Notes under the pieces: model-generated
Told to the model about the DNA's origin: nothing
What the model saw: only the letters and a program-made list of their open reading frames with translations
Databases searched by the model: none
Position numbers and translations under genes: made by a program
Source of the DNA: Tenericutes bacterium MO-XQ
GTDB lineage: Bacteria > Bacillota_I > Bacilli_A > Acholeplasmatales > Acholeplasmataceae
DNA length: 64,000 nucleotides
Reading direction: 5' to 3'
NCBI GenBank assembly: GCA_002838185.1
Contig: CP017948.1
Coordinates: 372,001 to 436,000 of the forward strand
Shown here: positions 27,151 to 40,923 of the stretch, one piece after another
Position numbering within the stretch: the first letter of the stretch is position 1
Layout: each line of letters starts with the position of its first letter

Positions 27151-27184
27151 AAGAATATGATTTAACAAGAAAGGCGGAATGTCT

Positions 27185-28156
27185 ATGCCCTCATTTCTAA
27201 TGATTCAATGGGGAATTATTGGATTCTTCGTAATAATACACTTTTTAATCGGATTTTTGAGAGGAACGAGTAAGTCAACATATTTTACAATCGTTAGTTT
27301 AATTATGACGGTGGTGACATTGTGGATAGTTTCAAAACTTTCTTTTAACATGCTTTTAACATCTGGCTTATTTTCTACATCTCTACTAGATTTAGTAAAT
27401 AGCCTCACTGGTGGTGCTATACCAGCAGATGTTATAACTTATTTAAATGAACCTGAGATTTTAGGATTAGCAATCGCGATTGCTGATTTAGTACTTAGAA
27501 TCGCTGCATATTTTATTTTATATCCTTTAATTAAATTTTCTTTAACTATTACCATTTTCAAACCTATTTGGAAACTCGGTATTAAAAAGAGCATACTTAA
27601 AAAACAAAATGAACAAGCAAGAATTAAACATGAAGAACAAGAAAATCAAAATCGTAAATTTGTGCCTTCAAAACGTCTTAATAAAAATATATTAAGTCGT
27701 CTATTTGGTGGTGCTGTTGGTTCTCTTAGAGGTTTAGTGGTTGCGTTCATTTTTTTAGTTCCACTATTAGTCCTAGCAAGTTTTGCATCAGAAGTTACAT
27801 CGGGATTAAACATAGAACAAACACAAGAAGGACAAGTTCTAAGTTCTCAACAAGACCTTGCTATAACAATTCCTAGTGAAATTGAAGAAATCTTAAGAAA
27901 TATTAATGAAATGAATGAAGGCGGATTATCCGCGATCGTCAAAGATATTACCATTCAGGAAAAATCGTTGGATCGCTATATTTTTGATACAGTATTTACG
28001 ACTGATATTGTTGTTGAAGAAACGTCAACAAGCATTAACTTTGGTAATGAACTTGAACAAATTATGGGAATTGCAACGATCATCGCTGAAAATGGATACC
28101 TTGAAGATGATTTTCAAATAGAAAATATTTCAACAGATGATATTGCAAATGCTTAA
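27185..28156 (+). CDS. N-terminal CvpA-like membrane portion of the giant protein
   Basis: About 323 residues up to the in-frame TAA. Four membrane segments are visible (near residues 8-28, 35-55, 95-120 and 180-203). The last, RLFGGAVGSLRGLVVAFIFLVPLLVL, resembles the Gly-rich helix of CvpA-family proteins. A basic, coiled-coil-like stretch (residues ~140-165) lies between helices 3 and 4 and should be cytoplasmic. The segment after helix 4 is acidic and continues in sense into the next reading frame, so this is probably a truncated anchor. Start at 27185 fits AAGGCGG better than the ATG at 27179. Confidence 0.7.
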   Translation: MPSFLMIQWGIIGFFVIIHFLIGFLRGTSKSTYFTIVSLIMTVVTLWIVSKLSFNMLLTSGLFSTSLLDLVNSLTGGAIPADVITYLNEPEILGLAIAIADLVLRIAAYFILYPLIKFSLTITIFKPIWKLGIKKSILKKQNEQARIKHEEQENQNRKFVPSKRLNKNILSRLFGGAVGSLRGLVVAFIFLVPLLVLASFASEVTSGLNIEQTQEGQVLSSQQDLAITIPSEIEEILRNINEMNEGGLSAIVKDITIQEKSLDRYIFDTVFTTDIVVEETSTSINFGNELEQIMGIATIIAENGYLEDDFQIENISTDDIANA

Positions 28157-28198
28157 CTGATTTTTCAACATATCGGTCAAAGTGAACTGATTCAATAT

Positions 28199-31100
28199 AT
28201 GATACCAGCAGCTGTTAGATATGGTGTTGAAAACTTAGCACCAGAAGAACTCAATGGTATTGATTTTGGTGGTAGAGATGCATCACAACTTGCACTAGAT
28301 TTTTTCTATACCATTGCATGGGATGAAGAGTTCGGTGAAATCTTTGATATAGCTGAATCTGCATTAACCTTTGCAACAGTTAGTGAATGGATGACTTATA
28401 TAGATCAACCAGAACTCCTAGCAGAACTTACTCCTGAAGAAGGCGTTATGCTGGCAGATATCATCCGCTCACTAGGTGATTTAAAAATGTTATCATTAAT
28501 TAATGTAGCAATTGATTATGCAACTACATTAGAAGAAGCTCAACAAGAAATCGCTTGGATGGATCCATCAGAAGTTGAAGGATATCTACAAGAAAGGTTT
28601 GCATTTATTTTAGATGATCCAGACTTTTTCGTAGGATCAGAAGGTGAACTATATCGTATCGCACAAGTTGTAGAAACAGTATTCTCAGATGAATTTGGTG
28701 ATACTAACTTAACGACACTACTTAGTTCAGTTAACGATTTAGAAACATTTATCAATTCCCTAAATCCTGAATGGGTTGGCGCGATTGTAGAAGATTTAGT
28801 AGAAGTAAGACTGATTATTGAATCAATGCCAGCGGCTATTGATTTTGCAGTATTCCAACAATTAAAAGATTCTGTAGATGAAGAATTAGCAGAACAAATT
28901 ATGTTAGAAGTACAAAACATTGAATGGGATCAAGAAATCATCAATGTTGGTGATATTTACAAAGAAGCTTTAAAAATAGGTATTGGTACAGTATTTGGTC
29001 AAGATACTGATTTGTTAGCGTTTATTGATGATGTTGCTGTAAACCATATGGATTCATTAAGACAAATTGTTGAATATGTTTTTGAAGGCAGTGAAGTTGT
29101 TAATGCAGCACTACGTATTGCAAGTCCAACTCTAATAGAAGGTTTAGTTGATGATCCTACATTACAAGAAGCTATCGGTGACATATTAGTCAGCGATCCT
29201 CAAAGTGAAACAATCGATTTCAATTTTGGACAAGAAATCAATAATTTACTAACAATCGTTGAAAGCATTAATACATTTAGTAGCTTATCAGAAATCCAAG
29301 GATTATCTGGTATGGAAACAAACGATATGTTAGAAGTCATTTCACAACTAAGTTCGTTAACTGATACAGAGTACCAAACACTTAGAACAGCAGTTAATGA
29401 CTTACAAATATTATCAAGAGCTGGAGAACCAGCATTAGAATATTTACAAGGTATGGTGACTTCACCACTGATCTATATTCCAACCAGTATACAGTTAAAT
29501 CAAGAAGTTGCTTCAGTATTAGATTTAGCATATACTGTCTCAGATTATTTAGCTGAACAAAGTGGATCATATCTATATTATCAAGATATTAATCTAGAAG
29601 GATTATTAGATGATCCAGATTTTAGGGCATTTTTCACTTATTCAGTAGCAAATACACATTCTGATTTACTATTAGTGAATGTTGCAAACAATATAAAAAA
29701 TATTGTTGAAACAGGTGCATTAAGTACATATACGACAATACCAACAACGTTAGCAGATGAAGATATCGATTCTGTTTTATGGAGACAAGAAGCTACTGAA
29801 GTGATGGAAGCTGTTTTTGATTTAATTATTGCAGCTGGAAATTCAGAAGGATTTGAATTATCTTATGCAGGCATCATTACAGCTGCTAATGATACATCTC
29901 AATTACCACTTGATGCACTTTATCAAATGAGTGAAAATGGAACATTCCTTGAACTCTTTGATTCCGATGTTATCCATAAACTTGTATCTGATTTCCTATC
30001 CAATACTGATACACAACAAGTATTAGTAGACGGTGTTAATTCAGCACAAACCATTTTTGTAGCACCAGCTGATTTCTTTGCTGCTGATGCTGATCTCATG
30101 GATGGAGATTTAATCAAACCTGTTGAATTTGAAAATATCGTCATCGCAATTTATGCATTAGGTATAACAAACATAGAATCCGTATCAACTTTAGGCTTAG
30201 AAACATTTACAACACTTTTAGATCGAAATATAGATCCTGATACAGGTGAAGATGATTTTGATCGTGTTTTTGGTGCTAACTATATTTATACTATATTAGA
30301 TAAAGTATTAAAACTAGAGACTTTAGGAGATTTTGTAGGTACAACTTTAGGTGATGCTTTAGGTCTTACTGTTGACAGTTTTGATACAACACCATCTGAT
30401 GCTATGCTTGCAAGTGATCCACTTGTTTATGAAGATATAGAAATTGGAAGAATTCCAAAAGAAGAATTTAGACGTATGTTAACATCACTTACCGTATTAG
30501 GTGATCTTGGCGAAATCGGATTAGATACATTTACAAATATGATAGATTTATCTCAACCAACAGATGATTTTGATACGTTTATTGCTTCAGATTATATTTA
30601 TACAATCTTAGCAAGATTATTCGATAATGAAGCCTTTGGAAATTATGTTGGAGATGCTCTATCAGGTGCATTTGCAGATGATCCAATCGTTTTAGATATG
30701 GCAGTACCATCTGATGCACAAGGTACATCAGGTGTTGAAGAAGATTTGATTGAACGTTCTGAAATCAAGAAAATGATGGTCTCTCTTGACATGCTTAATT
30801 TTGGCGGAGAGCAAGAAATCTCTGTTGATACCATTTTAGATATGATTGGTGCTAATGTAGATGTTGGTACAGGAGAAGATGATTTTTCTAGATTTATTGA
30901 TAGTTTATATATTCAAGATAAAGTTTCTCAATTATTGTTAAGTGATCAAATCATTGAACTCATTGCTAATAGTAGATTTTTAGCAACTGATTTTGTGATG
31001 CCAACAGGCAGTACAGTTAACGTTGATGGCAGAGATCGTTTGATCAAACAAGAAATTTATGATTTATTTGCAGGTCTTGATTTATTAGGATTAGGTGACT

Positions 31101-34100
31101 TTGAGAATCAACAACTTTCTTTAGATACAGTTACAACTCTTACTGATACTGAAGAAGATCAACTCTTATCATCTAGTTATTTATATCTAACACTAGATCT
31201 AATGCTTAAATCAGAAACAAACATTACAGTTCCTGATGATGCTTTAGAGACTTCAGGTAATTATACAGGTATGATTATGAAGACTGAAATTAAGGATTTA
31301 CTCGCAGTCTTTGATATCCTTGGTGAAAGTGATCCTGCACAAATAGATGTTAATACAGTGACAATCGCTGATATCCAAGCAATGATTGATTTAGAATCAA
31401 ATATTATCGATCAACTTGTCAGTGATGCAATTGTAGATAACCTTACATCTATTCCACTAACTGCTTATAATGTTGACCAAACAAGATTGTTAAGATCAGA
31501 AATGAACAAGATGATAGATACACTACTCATTCTAAGTGGTGGAGATGATCAACAAACATTAACAGGTTTAATGCCAATCGATACATCTACGATGACAACT
31601 GATATGCTTACAGATATCTTTAACGTAGATTCAAGAATCATTGATCGATTAACTTCAGAAGCAATCATCGATAGTGGTATTTCAATTCATTCTTTAGCAT
31701 ACGATGAAAACAGTGAATTAGATCCAGTTACTTCAGAAAAATTAGATATCAAACGTTCAGAAATGGCTGATATGTTATCAGCAATGGACATCTTAGATAT
31801 CGATATTTCAAATGCAAGTACAATTGATCAATCTAAATATACACCAACAAATATTGGTCTATTATTAGATTTAGAATCACTCATTATTTATCGTTTAATC
31901 TCAGAAGGTATTCAAGATCAAAATTTACATACAGATGAATCATTATCAGAAGATGGTGTTGATGTAAACTATGACCCAGAAGCTCCAGGTAGTGATATTA
32001 AAGTTGCTGAAATGGAAGCTTTAGTGGAAGCAATGACTGTTTTAGGCATTGTGAATCTAACTGATCCAATCGATGTCGGTGCTGTAAGTGTTACCCAACT
32101 TAGAGATACACATTACTTAGGTTTAGGTACAGATCCAAATGGTGATGTTTATGAATCGAGAATTATCCATAGACTTATTAGTGATGCGGTAGACGATAGT
32201 ATTACAGTTCCTGATCAAGCTTATATGACAGTTGATAACCTTGATGTATTACCAGATGAAATTAGTGCACTTATTGATGCACTTGATGTGATGGGACTTA
32301 CTAAGTTATCAGATCCAATTGATGTTAACACACTAACAACCACTCAACTTAAAGATATTCATTATTTAGGTAAAGGAACAAATCCTGTACCTGAAGATGA
32401 ATTATATGACTCTATGACTATTCATAGATTAATCAGTGATGCAGTAATTGATAACTTATATGCTGGTGATCCATTAAATGCTCCTGATGATGCATTTGAA
32501 TTAGGATCAACAGAAGATATTGAAGCAGTAGAAATCAGTGCATTAATCGATTCACTTGATGTGATGGGATTAGCTACACTTGGTGATCCTATTGATGTTG
32601 ATAATTTAACTGTTACACAACTTAGAAACATACATTATTTAGGTAAAGGCACAGATCCAGTAACTGATACTTATGATTCAGTGATTATTCATCGATTAAT
32701 CAGTGAAGCTGTTATAGACAACTTATATACAGGAGATCCTTTATTAGCTCCAGATGGCGCATTTGAAACAGGATCAACTGAAGATTTAGAGGCAGTAGAA
32801 ATTAGTGCTCTGATCGAATCACTAAGTGAAATGGGATTAACTACATTATCAGATCCTATCAATGTTGATGATTTAACAGTTGCACAACTTAGAAATATTC
32901 ATTATCTAGGTAAAGGTACAGATCCAGTAACTGACACATATGATTCTGTGATTATTCATAGACTTATTAGTGATGCAGTTGTTGATACATTATATACAGG
33001 AGATCCATTACAAGCCCCAGATGGTGCATTTGAAACAGGATCAACTGATGATTTAGAAGCGTTAGAAGTAAGTGCTCTTATTGAATCACTTGATGAAATG
33101 GGATTAACTAAATTATCTGATCCAATCAATGTAGATGATTTAACAGTTGCACAACTTAGAAACATACATTACTTAGGGTTAGGTATAGACCCTGTTACAG
33201 ATACATATGAATCAGTCATTATTCATAGACTCATTAGTGATTCAGTCATCTCTACAGTAACCATTCCTGATGATGCTTATATGACTGTTGCCCAAGAAGA
33301 TGTTAAACCATTAGAAGTCAGTGCTTTAATTGAAGCATTAGAAGAAATGGGATTAACTAAACTTTCTGATCCAATTAATGTAGATACGCTTACCCTTACA
33401 CAATTAGACAACATTCATTATCTTGGTCTAGCAATAGATCCAGTTCTTGATGAGTATCAATCATTAATTATCCATAGACTTATCAGTGATGCAGTTGTCG
33501 ATAGTTTATACTCTGGTGATCCATTACAAGCTCCAAATGGCGCATTTAAAGCAGGATCAACAGAAGATTTAGAAGAAGATGAAATCAGTGCTCTTATCGA
33601 TGCACTTGAAGAAATGGGATTAAGCACATTAGGTGACTCAATTGATGTTGATAATTTATCATTAACACAATTAAGAAATATTCACTATTTAGGATTAGAA
33701 GAAGATCCAGCAACAGACTTATATGATTCTGTGATCATTCATAGATTAATTAGTGATTCTGTCATATCAACAGTTACAGTACCAGATGATGCTTACATGA
33801 CTGTAGCACAAATTCATGTGAAAGTAGAAGAAATATCTGCATTAATTGAAGCTTTAGATGTCATGGGATTAACTAAATTATCAGACCCAATTGATGTGAA
33901 TGGCTTAACTGTAACAACACTTAAAGATGTTCATTATCTAGGACTTGGAACAGATCCAAGTGGTGATGATTATGAATCACTCATTATCCATAGACTTGTT
34001 TCTGAAGCAGTTGTAGATAGTTTATATGGTGGAAATCCGTTACTTGCTCCAGATGGTGCATTTAAAGTGGGTTCTACAGAAGACTTAGAAGAAGATGAAA

Positions 34101-35131
34101 TTAGTGCATTAATTGAAGCAATGGAAGAAATGGGTATTACAACTTTAGGAGCTTCACTTGCAATTTCTAACCCAACAAACACACAATTACAAGCACTTCA
34201 TGATTTAGGATTAAATGTTCCAGTTGATGATGTTTATCAATCTGTGATTGTTCATAGATTAATAAGTGACTCAATTGATTCTGCACTTACAGTTCCTAGT
34301 GAAGCATTTATGGCTGGTAGTACAGATGATCTTGAAGTTGATGAAATCAGTGCATTAATTGCAGCAATGGATGAAATGGGACTTACAACATTAAGTGCTG
34401 GATTATCAATTTCTGATCCAAGTCGTACACAATTACAAAACTTACATTATTTAGGATTAGAAGAAGATCCAGTTACAGATTTATATGATTCTTATATCGT
34501 TCATAGATTAATTAGTGATTCAATTACAGCAGCATTAACTGTTCCAAGTGACGCATATGATTCAGTTGCAGAAGATGACCTTGAAGTTGATGAAATCAGT
34601 GCACTTATTGAAGCTATGGAAGAAATGAACATTACAACATTAAGTTCAGGATTGACATTCGGAAATCCAACAACAGCTCAAATTCAAGCATTGAATTACT
34701 TAGGTTTAGGTACCGATCCAGTGACTGACTTATATGACTCATATATTGTACACAGATTATTATCTGATGCTATTGATGCAGTTATATCAGTACCTGTTGA
34801 TTCATTCATGGTTGGTAGACCAAACGATATTAAACCTGAAGAAATTGATCATTTAGTTGGTACAATGAATATCATTGGCGCAACTGATGTCTCAGACTTC
34901 TCTGGAATTACAGTTGCTGATCTTTCTGGCTTATCTGCTGGAGAAATAGAATATATCACAGAAGCTATAGCTGATGGACCAAACTTAATAGTATATTACT
35001 TTATTGCAGACATTGTTGACCCAACGAATACGCTTTATCCTTTAGATTCAGCATATGAAATGGACATCACTAATACAATAAGAATTAGACTTACTAGAAG
35101 TTCACTAGCAACAGCTTTAGGCGCATTATAA
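28199..35131 (+). CDS. Giant acidic tandem-repeat domain (2,310 codons), probably the body of the interrupted gene
   Basis: I recognise no family. The protein is very acidic, Leu/Ile-rich, almost devoid of Cys, and predicted mainly helical. The first ~700 residues are non-repetitive or weakly repetitive; from residue ~690 on the same unit recurs with rising similarity. The unit is IIHRLISDAV, then VPDDAY or GDPLxAPDGAF, EISALIEALxEMGLTxL, DPIxVxxLTxTQLxxIHYLG, and YDS. There is no C-terminal anchor, so attachment would come from the upstream membrane part. No ribosome binding site precedes its first ATG. Confidence 0.7.
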   Translation: MIPAAVRYGVENLAPEELNGIDFGGRDASQLALDFFYTIAWDEEFGEIFDIAESALTFATVSEWMTYIDQPELLAELTPEEGVMLADIIRSLGDLKMLSLINVAIDYATTLEEAQQEIAWMDPSEVEGYLQERFAFILDDPDFFVGSEGELYRIAQVVETVFSDEFGDTNLTTLLSSVNDLETFINSLNPEWVGAIVEDLVEVRLIIESMPAAIDFAVFQQLKDSVDEELAEQIMLEVQNIEWDQEIINVGDIYKEALKIGIGTVFGQDTDLLAFIDDVAVNHMDSLRQIVEYVFEGSEVVNAALRIASPTLIEGLVDDPTLQEAIGDILVSDPQSETIDFNFGQEINNLLTIVESINTFSSLSEIQGLSGMETNDMLEVISQLSSLTDTEYQTLRTAVNDLQILSRAGEPALEYLQGMVTSPLIYIPTSIQLNQEVASVLDLAYTVSDYLAEQSGSYLYYQDINLEGLLDDPDFRAFFTYSVANTHSDLLLVNVANNIKNIVETGALSTYTTIPTTLADEDIDSVLWRQEATEVMEAVFDLIIAAGNSEGFELSYAGIITAANDTSQLPLDALYQMSENGTFLELFDSDVIHKLVSDFLSNTDTQQVLVDGVNSAQTIFVAPADFFAADADLMDGDLIKPVEFENIVIAIYALGITNIESVSTLGLETFTTLLDRNIDPDTGEDDFDRVFGANYIYTILDKVLKLETLGDFVGTTLGDALGLTVDSFDTTPSDAMLASDPLVYEDIEIGRIPKEEFRRMLTSLTVLGDLGEIGLDTFTNMIDLSQPTDDFDTFIASDYIYTILARLFDNEAFGNYVGDALSGAFADDPIVLDMAVPSDAQGTSGVEEDLIERSEIKKMMVSLDMLNFGGEQEISVDTILDMIGANVDVGTGEDDFSRFIDSLYIQDKVSQLLLSDQIIELIANSRFLATDFVMPTGSTVNVDGRDRLIKQEIYDLFAGLDLLGLGDFENQQLSLDTVTTLTDTEEDQLLSSSYLYLTLDLMLKSETNITVPDDALETSGNYTGMIMKTEIKDLLAVFDILGESDPAQIDVNTVTIADIQAMIDLESNIIDQLVSDAIVDNLTSIPLTAYNVDQTRLLRSEMNKMIDTLLILSGGDDQQTLTGLMPIDTSTMTTDMLTDIFNVDSRIIDRLTSEAIIDSGISIHSLAYDENSELDPVTSEKLDIKRSEMADMLSAMDILDIDISNASTIDQSKYTPTNIGLLLDLESLIIYRLISEGIQDQNLHTDESLSEDGVDVNYDPEAPGSDIKVAEMEALVEAMTVLGIVNLTDPIDVGAVSVTQLRDTHYLGLGTDPNGDVYESRIIHRLISDAVDDSITVPDQAYMTVDNLDVLPDEISALIDALDVMGLTKLSDPIDVNTLTTTQLKDIHYLGKGTNPVPEDELYDSMTIHRLISDAVIDNLYAGDPLNAPDDAFELGSTEDIEAVEISALIDSLDVMGLATLGDPIDVDNLTVTQLRNIHYLGKGTDPVTDTYDSVIIHRLISEAVIDNLYTGDPLLAPDGAFETGSTEDLEAVEISALIESLSEMGLTTLSDPINVDDLTVAQLRNIHYLGKGTDPVTDTYDSVIIHRLISDAVVDTLYTGDPLQAPDGAFETGSTDDLEALEVSALIESLDEMGLTKLSDPINVDDLTVAQLRNIHYLGLGIDPVTDTYESVIIHRLISDSVISTVTIPDDAYMTVAQEDVKPLEVSALIEALEEMGLTKLSDPINVDTLTLTQLDNIHYLGLAIDPVLDEYQSLIIHRLISDAVVDSLYSGDPLQAPNGAFKAGSTEDLEEDEISALIDALEEMGLSTLGDSIDVDNLSLTQLRNIHYLGLEEDPATDLYDSVIIHRLISDSVISTVTVPDDAYMTVAQIHVKVEEISALIEALDVMGLTKLSDPIDVNGLTVTTLKDVHYLGLGTDPSGDDYESLIIHRLVSEAVVDSLYGGNPLLAPDGAFKVGSTEDLEEDEISALIEAMEEMGITTLGASLAISNPTNTQLQALHDLGLNVPVDDVYQSVIVHRLISDSIDSALTVPSEAFMAGSTDDLEVDEISALIAAMDEMGLTTLSAGLSISDPSRTQLQNLHYLGLEEDPVTDLYDSYIVHRLISDSITAALTVPSDAYDSVAEDDLEVDEISALIEAMEEMNITTLSSGLTFGNPTTAQIQALNYLGLGTDPVTDLYDSYIVHRLLSDAIDAVISVPVDSFMVGRPNDIKPEEIDHLVGTMNIIGATDVSDFSGITVADLSGLSAGEIEYITEAIADGPNLIVYYFIADIVDPTNTLYPLDSAYEMDITNTIRIRLTRSSLATALGAL
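32159..34990 (+). repeat. Tandem coding repeats, 249- and 267-bp units
   Basis: The IIHRLIS motif starts at 32159, 32414, 32681, 32948, 33215, 33464, 33731, 33980, 34244, 34493 and 34742. Steps are 255, 267, 267, 267, 249, 267, 249, 264, 249 and 249 bp. The long unit carries a GDPLxAPDGAFxxGSTED insert; the short one has VPDDAYMTVAQ or similar. Weaker copies go back to about 31390. All steps are multiples of three, so units could be gained or lost in frame. Confidence 0.9.
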
Positions 35132-38041: not shown

Positions 38042-38082
38042 CTGACATCCCTCATTTACTTTTATTTTGTGTAATTTAATTT

Positions 38083-38111
38083 ATTATACAACATTTTGAA
38101 GTAAATATGAA
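38083..38111 (-). promoter_or_regulatory. Promoter of the DUF5058-M20 operon
   Basis: On the minus strand TTCATA (38106-38111), 17 bp, TATAAT (38083-38088). Confidence 0.55.
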
Positions 38112-38159
38112 TATAACTCAAAGTGATTACAAAAAAAAGCATCCAATTTGGATAAAATG

Positions 38160-38214
38160 GAACCTATAAAATAGACACTTTGAAAAAAGGAAGCTATTTT
38201 TAGGTTCTTTTTTT
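38160..38214 (+). terminator. IS-borne terminator at the left end
   Basis: GAACCTATAAAATAG (38160-38174) pairs with CTATTTTTAGGTTC (38194-38207), followed by seven T. It would stop transcription entering from outside before it reaches the transposase genes, a known self-control device of IS elements. TATACT at 38216-38221 directly after it may be the orfA -10. Confidence 0.7.
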
Positions 38215-38242
38215 GTATACTAATAAAGAGAGGTGATGAACA

Positions 38243-38680
38243 ATGAGTAAAAAACTATTCACAGAGCAAGAAATAGAGATATTAAAACAAAACAAGTATG
38301 TAAAACGAGTTGGATCAAAAGGAATAACATACAGCGATGAACTCAAACAGTTCGCAATAGCAAAATCAGAAGAAGGATTTCTGAGCACTGAAATATTTGA
38401 GATGGCAGGATTTGATCTAACAATTATTGGTCGAACAAGAGCACAAAAAGCGTTAGATAGATGGAAAATAGCATATAAAAAATCTGGAATAATGGGACTA
38501 CAAGACACGCGAAAAGGATTATCAGGGAGACCATTGGAAAGAGAATTAAGCCTAGAAGAGCAACTAGAACGAAAAGAAGCTAGGATTAAGTTTTTGGAGG
38601 TACAACTAGATTTCCAAAAAAAGTTAGACATGATAGAAAGGGGCGTGTATACACCCAAAAGCAAGAAAAAACACAAATAA
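38243..38680 (+). CDS. IS3-family transposase OrfA
   Basis: A 145-residue protein with an N-terminal helix-turn-helix (about residues 28-75, KQFAIAKSEEGFLSTEIFEMAGFDLTIIGR) and a C-terminal leucine-zipper-like helix (LEEQLERKEARIKFLEVQLDFQKKL). The A7 run at 38616-38622 lies just behind the zipper codons; a -1 shift there joins the orfB frame, which is open from this point on. AGAGGTGA precedes the ATG. Confidence 0.92.
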   Translation: MSKKLFTEQEIEILKQNKYVKRVGSKGITYSDELKQFAIAKSEEGFLSTEIFEMAGFDLTIIGRTRAQKALDRWKIAYKKSGIMGLQDTRKGLSGRPLERELSLEEQLERKEARIKFLEVQLDFQKKLDMIERGVYTPKSKKKHK

Positions 38681-38727
38681 TCTATGAATTAATCAAAGAA
38701 ATCATCGATGAGAATGGTTACACAAGA

Positions 38728-39615
38728 ATGGTTACATTCTTATGTGATGAAGCTGAGGTATCTAGAAGTGGATATTACAATTATTTCAGTCCTAAAGCAA
38801 TTAAACGAAGAGAAATCCGTGAGGAAGAGGATCAAGCCTTACTAGATTTAATTATTGAAGTATACAAGTTTAAAGGTTACAAGAAAGGATCAAGAGAAAT
38901 CAAGGATTTTCTCTTAAACGAATATGGAATCATCATGAATCGTAAAAGAATACAACGAGTCATGAGAAAATACGAGATTATTTGTCCGATTAGAAAGGCC
39001 AATCCATATAAAAGAATGGCTAAAAGTATAAAAGGTCATCATATACATGAAGACCATGTGATGCGTAATTTCAAACCAGGAAGACCATTCGCAGTTCTTT
39101 TAACAGACATAACATATTTCAGTTTTGGGAGAAAGAACAGACGAGGATTCCTGTCAGCAATCAAGGATAGCCAAACAGGGGAAATAGTCGCAAGAGCAGC
39201 ATCAACATCGCTTAGAATGGATTTCGTGATGGAAACGCTAGATAACCTAACAAAGCATCCATTATTTGACGAGAACAATGATATGATCATTCATTCAGAT
39301 CAAGGAAGTCATTATGCATCAAATGACTTTGGAGACTTTCTTAGTAGGTACAAAATAACACAATCCATGTCACGTCGCGGGAATTGTTGGGACAACGCTC
39401 CAATAGAATCTTTCTTTGGAACGTACAAAGATCATGTAGATCTGAGTGATTGTGAAACAATCGAACAAGCATTAGTGAAGATAGATCATTTTCTGGACTA
39501 TTACAACAACTATAAACCACAAAGAAAATTGGATAGATTACCACCTATCAAATACAGAGATTTACTAATAACAAAACAAAAAGGTGAAATTCCTCTAAAG
39601 GAATCTACACCTTAA
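38728..39615 (+). CDS. IS3-family transposase OrfB (DDE integrase domain)
   Basis: The catalytic part of the transposase. The first ATG is at 38728, but the frame is open back to the A7 slippery site at 38616, so the main product is probably the OrfAB fusion. An N-terminal HTH_21 region (YKKGSREIKDFLLNEYGIIMNRKRIQRVMRKY) precedes the rve core. The DDE residues are intact: Asp in LLTDITYF, Asp in IHSDQGSHYAS, and Glu in NAPIESFFGTYK. No stop or frameshift is visible, so the element may be active. Confidence 0.94.
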   Translation: MVTFLCDEAEVSRSGYYNYFSPKAIKRREIREEEDQALLDLIIEVYKFKGYKKGSREIKDFLLNEYGIIMNRKRIQRVMRKYEIICPIRKANPYKRMAKSIKGHHIHEDHVMRNFKPGRPFAVLLTDITYFSFGRKNRRGFLSAIKDSQTGEIVARAASTSLRMDFVMETLDNLTKHPLFDENNDMIIHSDQGSHYASNDFGDFLSRYKITQSMSRRGNCWDNAPIESFFGTYKDHVDLSDCETIEQALVKIDHFLDYYNNYKPQRKLDRLPPIKYRDLLITKQKGEIPLKESTP

Positions 39616-39678
39616 TTAATATTACTGCCTTTTTTTAAAGTGTCCTTGACATTGGGTCCACTTTAGGATGCTTTTGAC

Positions 39679-40923
39679 TTATTTTTTAACAACTCTTACT
39701 TTTTTAAGTTGTGCAAATCTTGGAAGACCATCTTCTAATTTAGCCTTAGATTCACCTTGGATAAGTGGAAGTGCATAATCGATGAACTCTTGAGTTAAAC
39801 CTCTACCTCTTGGTTTAATCCAAGCTAGTGGTACTTTTTGTTCTTCATTAGCAGCTTTTCTTAAAGGAATTAATTTATATTTGATCTTGTAAGGATTTGA
39901 AGACACTCTTTCAAAACCTACCATCTTATCTGTTGTTCCTCTAACTGCAGCTTTAACAGCTTTTTGACCTGCTTTAAATGCTTCTTCGACATCAACCTTT
40001 GATGCTAGATGAGCAGCAGAACGTTGTAATAAACTAAATTCGATTGCTCTAATTTTAACATTGATACGGTTTGATAACTCAGTTGCAAGCACTGAAGCAG
40101 TACCACCTAATTGAGCATGACCGAATGCATCAGTTTTTAGTTCTTGTAGAGTTTCTGCAATGTATTGACCTTTATCATTTTTAATACCTTCAGAAACTGC
40201 AATTAAGACTTTACTCTTTTCTTTTAAAATTGATTCAACATCTTCAAAGAATTCTTCAACATCAAATGCAACTTCTGGAAGATAGATTAAATCTGGACCT
40301 TGACCTTTATAAGTAGCTAATGCTGAAGCAGCTGTTAACCAACCAGCATTTCTACCCATCACTTCAACGATTGTGATTTGTGGAATATCATATACTGTTG
40401 CATCATGATATAGTTCCATAAATGAAGTAGCTACATATTTTGCAGCACTTGCAAATCCTGGAGAGTGATCAGTAACATTTAAGTCATTGTCAATAGTCTT
40501 TGGAACACCCATGACATTGCAATCATAACCTGATTTCTTAAAGAATTTAGAAATCTTGTTACATGTATCCATTGAATCGTTACCACCATTGTAGAAGAAG
40601 TAACGAATATTATATTTCTTGAAAACTTCTAATAAACGTCTGTAATCTGAATCATCTTTCTTTGGATCTGCTAATTTGTAACGAACGCTACCAATTGCAG
40701 ATGATGGTGTATTTTTTAATCTTAATAATTCTTCTTGATCTTCTTTTGACATATCATAGAAATCTTCGTTTAATACACCTTTGATGCCATGAATTGCACC
40801 ATATACTTCAGTGATATTTTCTTGTTTTAAAGCTTCTAAGAAAACACCAGCTGCACTTGAATTAATAACACTTGTAGGACCACCTGATTGGCCTAATAAT
40901 GCTGCACCTTTTAAATCTTTCAT
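39679..40923 (-). CDS. pfp: Diphosphate-dependent 6-phosphofructokinase
   Basis: Phosphorylates fructose 6-phosphate with pyrophosphate, reversibly. The 414-residue protein has GGPTSVINSSAAG, the donor-site sequence GGNDSMDT and the catalytic loop PKTIDNDL. Asp in GGND and Lys in PKTID replace the Gly residues of ATP enzymes and are diagnostic of PPi use. Further blocks are HSPGFASAAKY and IVEVMGRNAGWLTAAS. It is divergent from an ATP-type pfkA and near PPDK, which makes pyrophosphate. Its terminator has been split by an IS element. Confidence 0.92.
   Translation of the reverse strand: MKDLKGAALLGQSGGPTSVINSSAAGVFLEALKQENITEVYGAIHGIKGVLNEDFYDMSKEDQEELLRLKNTPSSAIGSVRYKLADPKKDDSDYRRLLEVFKKYNIRYFFYNGGNDSMDTCNKISKFFKKSGYDCNVMGVPKTIDNDLNVTDHSPGFASAAKYVATSFMELYHDATVYDIPQITIVEVMGRNAGWLTAASALATYKGQGPDLIYLPEVAFDVEEFFEDVESILKEKSKVLIAVSEGIKNDKGQYIAETLQELKTDAFGHAQLGGTASVLATELSNRINVKIRAIEFSLLQRSAAHLASKVDVEEAFKAGQKAVKAAVRGTTDKMVGFERVSSNPYKIKYKLIPLRKAANEEQKVPLAWIKPRGRGLTQEFIDYALPLIQGESKAKLEDGLPRFAQLKKVRVVKK

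Follow-up and report, generated by a model that had tools for sequence, protein, structure and literature searches.

How is a single in-frame stop codon within an otherwise open frame of about 2,650 codons to be understood? The question is raised by a locus in the 64,000-nucleotide stretch of the Tenericutes bacterium MO-XQ genome (G000) analyzed here, referred to as the window. A first-pass annotation had noted that the frame from 27185 ends at TAA 28154-28156 and then resumes, and had offered a recent nonsense mutation, programmed readthrough or an error in the sequence as explanations. This layout stood up to reanalysis, as translation reopens at 28157 and continues through 2,324 sense codons up to the TAA at 35129-35131 (Table 1), and a stop-free run of 2,324 codons at a G+C of 32% is not a product of chance. 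The 14 codons on the 3′ side of the premature TAA had been described as normal protein, and they indeed align with relatives without a gap (LIFQHIGQSELIQY in the window and LIFNHIGQSELIQY in the sister species G003), which identifies them as genuine coding sequence. A frameshift in place of a nonsense change was rejected, given that both alternative frames (+1 and −1) run into stops only a few codons on and the relatives align gap-free. We placed the start at ATG 27185, which opens a protein beginning MPSF..., conserved in relatives, downstream of a conserved AAGGCGG, and not at the alternative ATG 27179. A second, intact copy of the gene was searched for elsewhere in G000 and was not found.

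Table 1. Features of the giant gene and of its interruption (window coordinates).
Feature	Position	Strand	Basis
Ribosome binding site AAGGCGG of the giant gene	27169..27175	+	Read in the sequence; AAGGCGG/GAGGCGG-type site equally placed in most close relatives
N-terminal part (323 codons): weakly CvpA-like membrane anchor containing four hydrophobic segments, and beginning of the external region	27185..28153	+	Translation, hydropathy, Pfam, AlphaFold2
Premature TAA at codon 324, where genus relatives have Glu (GAA)	28154..28156	+	Sequence and alignment
Downstream part of the gene, in unchanged frame (2,324 codons): Cys-free, acidic, without a strong membrane segment	28157..35128	+	Translation, hydropathy; homology to the uninterrupted gene in relatives
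Next in-frame ATG, without Shine-Dalgarno; internal Met, not conserved as a start	28199..28201	+	Sequence and alignment
Tandem repeats of 83-89 aa, C-terminal part	32258..34653	+	Tandem Repeats Finder periods 267 and 249; all-helical low-confidence AlphaFold2 model
Native TAA, end of the giant gene	35129..35131	+	Sequence, translation

In relatives from the genus, the family and the order, the region is one gene, mostly of about 1,600-4,400 codons, with some copies cut by contig ends. Because these relatives carry the region uninterrupted, both halves constitute one gene, which is interrupted in G000. The giant gene is spread across free-living Acholeplasmataceae-like genomes, and the host is a wall-less mollicute. 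A family-wide survey recovered the N-terminal domain in 46 of 88 genomes, the domain being missing from one genus (g8) of many small genomes; among the 46 carriers, stops within the N-terminal part occurred only in G003 and in G034, a poor MAG. Two further members of the genus, G002 and G004, possess the gene intact. Of the 31 rows in the alignment, 16 have Glu at codon 324, as do most close relatives; it is encoded by GAA in G002, G003 and G004, and the Leu expected there by the first-pass annotation was wrong. A stop at this codon was found in none of the aligned relatives, making the TAA unique to G000.

The predicted product of the giant gene is one membrane-anchored repeat protein of about 2,650 residues, which is probably surface-exposed. 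Strong hydrophobic segments span residues of about 1-29, 31-58, 90-125 and 173-208, all upstream of the stop, and hydropathy analysis past the stop revealed no segment over the usual cut-off, in agreement with the earlier statement that the only membrane anchor lies upstream. The downstream part is free of Cys and contains 19% D/E and 4% K/R. AlphaFold2 gave a model of the N-terminal part with a pLDDT of 74.7 (moderate), for which a Foldseek search against the PDB returned no significant match to any structure. The N-terminal domains of 10 out of 24 relatives matched the Pfam Colicin_V model with E<0.01 (best relative E 2.2e-4), and the window copy reached E 0.083 and 13.3 bits, below the family cut-off of 29.3; membership in CvpA/Colicin_V (PF02674) was not assigned. 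The repeat region was modeled as all-helical at low confidence. Its matches to DUF2250, CpxP and HTH domains were not believed, being weak, repeat-summed matches in which no single stretch passes, and no convincing membership in a named Pfam or NCBIfam family was found for the giant protein. The C-terminal repeat arrays of G000 (window 32258-34653) and G003 differ by exactly one unit of 89 residues.

The age of the stop was approached through the divergence of G000 from G003, whose giant proteins are 81% identical (dS about 1.0). G003 has a premature stop of its own, a TAG at codon 50, which is the only one across 2,562 codons and is followed by 2,512 open codons. Between the two species, dN/dS is 0.08 for codons 1-323 and, for consecutive parts after the stop, 0.11, 0.13 and 0.19, values similar to those of the intact pair G002/G004 (0.16, 0.18, 0.12 and 0.21). 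All G000/G003 indels comprise whole codons, including the one that amounts to exactly one 89-aa unit. The strength of purifying selection both before and after the stop, together with these in-frame indels, indicates that the stops of G000 and G003 are both recent. Furthermore, G000 and G003 have accumulated their own amino-acid changes in balanced numbers on either side of the stop, with no excess of G000-specific changes past it. For a branch of 0.5 substitutions per site, half of the G000/G003 divergence, about 110-220 extra stops would be expected downstream without selection; none was observed, which places the break within about the last 1-3% of the branch.

Overall, this comparative evidence makes it likely that the window copy of this gene for a giant membrane-anchored repeat protein is a very young pseudogene, produced by recent nonsense inactivation. 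A single base substitution at codon 324, from the GAA of relatives to the TAA of G000, would recently have ended translation and would leave a membrane stub of 323 residues, with the rest of the gene untranslated, and G000 presumably makes no useful full-length product. Among the explanations offered at first pass, recent nonsense is favored by the one-piece gene in relatives, the unique stop, the strong selection on the flanking coding sequence and the lack of any other lesion; the orthologue at the matching locus of relatives is uninterrupted, and the lesion is limited to the G000 lineage. Continued production of some full-length protein would predict an open and conserved remainder just as well.

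A background rate was obtained from 383 genes (about 130,000 codons) compared between G000 and G003, drawn from sampled stretches only. Besides the giant gene, G000 had two single-stop genes and no clear frameshifts, and G003 had one single-stop gene and two frameshifts. Single lesions affect about 1% of genes in both genomes, and young single-lesion pseudogenes are ordinary here. One of the further premature TAA codons of G000 is located in a radical-SAM-like gene (L137, G000:C1 about 1367952), whose G003 counterpart is intact and 95-99% identical; the other interrupts the gene for a 245-residue protein (L105/L121, about 474902). The G003 lesions comprise a TAA in the gene for a 670-residue protein (L112:13157-15169, minus strand) and frameshifts in GGDEF-like (G003:C1 about 1554475-1555500) and esterase-like (about 1542437-1543350) genes. 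Apparent nonsense codons at G003 832080 and G000 478002 were set aside because they are upstream of likely true starts. All other window genes alignable to G003 are full length in both genomes. About 3 kb on the 3′ side of the giant gene, the window contains an IS3-like element (38080-39682; integrase core and HTH_21, ORF 38728-39615 on the plus strand) that is missing from the equivalent site in G003.

Other accounts of the stop can be weighed against these observations. A C follows the stop, and such a context is commonly considered poor for termination; in addition, the coding sequence downstream is intact and conserved. Both points would suit readthrough in which an amino acid is sometimes inserted at UAA, yielding a low level of full-length protein, with the stop serving as a brake on an expensive product. 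It has also been argued that many bacterial in-frame stops are tolerated (PMC7918605). However, recency fully accounts for the intact downstream part, no relative conserves the stop, and the G003 stop is a UAG located elsewhere. With 20 of 38 genes, UAA terminates more window genes than any other stop. No ochre, amber or opal suppressor tRNA was detected among the tRNAs scanned at the G000 Rfam hits, and RF1 and RF2 are present, represented by two full-length members of the RF1/RF2 family; a change of genetic code was rejected on these same grounds. Programmed (conserved) readthrough, as proposed at first pass, is therefore unsupported, the stop being unshared by orthologues and no means of decoding it having been found. 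The decoding data argue against recoding, high-level readthrough and restart, and low-level readthrough is possible but highly improbable. Separate products, namely a 323-residue membrane protein acting alone and/or a repeat protein restarted at ATG 28199, are very unlikely as well. The stop does leave the membrane domain whole, and reinitiation 42 bases past a stop is possible in principle, but a restarted product would be devoid of a membrane anchor, and the G003 stop at codon 50 instead destroys the N-terminal domain. The first-pass annotation had named homologues with separate halves, or initiation at 28199, as the observations that would refute a single split gene; we found no relative carrying the halves as separate genes and, as that annotation had itself reported, no Shine-Dalgarno-like sequence before ATG 28199.

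An error in the sequence or assembly would mean that codon 324 is really a sense codon in the strain and that its gene is intact. The G000 assembly does contain an exact direct tandem duplication with a period of 98,930 bp (G000:C1 about 1579105-1777697, 100% identical over roughly 39.7 kb sampled), which may be a real amplification or an assembly artefact and probably explains the 6.92% contamination figure of this genome. The premature stop, in contrast, sits in sequence that Tandem Repeats Finder reports as non-repetitive, the lack of clear frameshifts in 383 G000 genes suggests an assembly that is accurate for indels, and the independently assembled sister is also broken, at another codon. 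Of the first-pass explanations, an error is accordingly one that we hold to be unlikely, since the independent stop of the sister and the incidence of single lesions near 1% fit a real, recent mutation better.

Recent nonsense inactivation gains a further dimension from the third species of the clade. In G001, which is next in the tree, the cation-efflux and M20 peptidase genes are joined and the giant gene is absent between them; a search for pieces of it elsewhere in the G001 genome found none. At the G001 junction (L161:1618-1867) lies a perfect inverted repeat of 75 bp that carries a terminator-like hairpin and a short reversed piece of the 3′ end of the M20 peptidase gene, and because of the inverted repeat and the damaged peptidase end an assembly problem is possible. 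TAA324 in G000, TAG50 in G003 and the absence in G001 are three different events, although the G001 junction needs caution. Breaks affect 2 of 4 carriers in the genus versus 1 of the remaining 42 (hypergeometric P about 0.02, hand-calculated). Scaled to its length, the giant gene is expected to bear about 0.04-0.06 lesions per genome, and the chance that the sister is also hit, given one lesion in G000, is about 6%, so that the recurrence is suggestive but not proven. Clade-wide recurrent loss, as suggested by these genomes, would mean that loss is tolerated or favored in the clade, for instance if the surface protein is expensive to make, or is exploited as a receptor by phages or predators, and is lost at the strain level or during culture. 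A special case of nonsense inactivation would be a reversible on/off polymorphism among strains, in which inactive alleles arise and revert under fluctuating selection, e.g. by phage or grazing. The three events set against long-term conservation, and the rarity of breaks among carriers elsewhere in the family, are consistent with such a polymorphism. However, the comparison covered one genome per species, chance co-occurrence could produce the same pattern, and neither stop falls in a hypermutable tract, unlike classical phase variation; we judge this special case to be unlikely. If true, it would represent mutational polymorphism of a single very large, and hence very mutable, gene, with each sequenced strain carrying a different young lesion.

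Under recent nonsense inactivation, the lone in-frame stop in this giant gene would be an ordinary lesion and not a recoding signal, a distinction that only comparison with relatives could reveal. The interest would lie in the recurrence, in which three species of one clade show three lesions in a gene kept under strong selection in the wider family. Bacterial in-frame stops have been described as often tolerated but short-lived (PMC7918605), which fits the giant gene of G000. As in the young nonsense pseudogenes of that study, a single in-frame stop interrupts a gene that is otherwise intact and has a dN/dS well below 1; that study centers on stops at one position in orthologues, whereas here the stops of the sisters differ and none is shared. 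At the protein level, the N-terminal multi-pass membrane domain resembles CvpA/Colicin_V (PF02674) weakly, in 10 of the 24 relatives, and unlike that family it is fused to a repeat region of >2,000 residues. The giant protein differs from the general class of bacterial giant repeat surface proteins in that it has no convincing place in a named Pfam or NCBIfam family and a surface location that is predicted, but it likewise combines a membrane anchor with long, acidic, Cys-free repeats, and its repeat units are likewise gained and lost between species.
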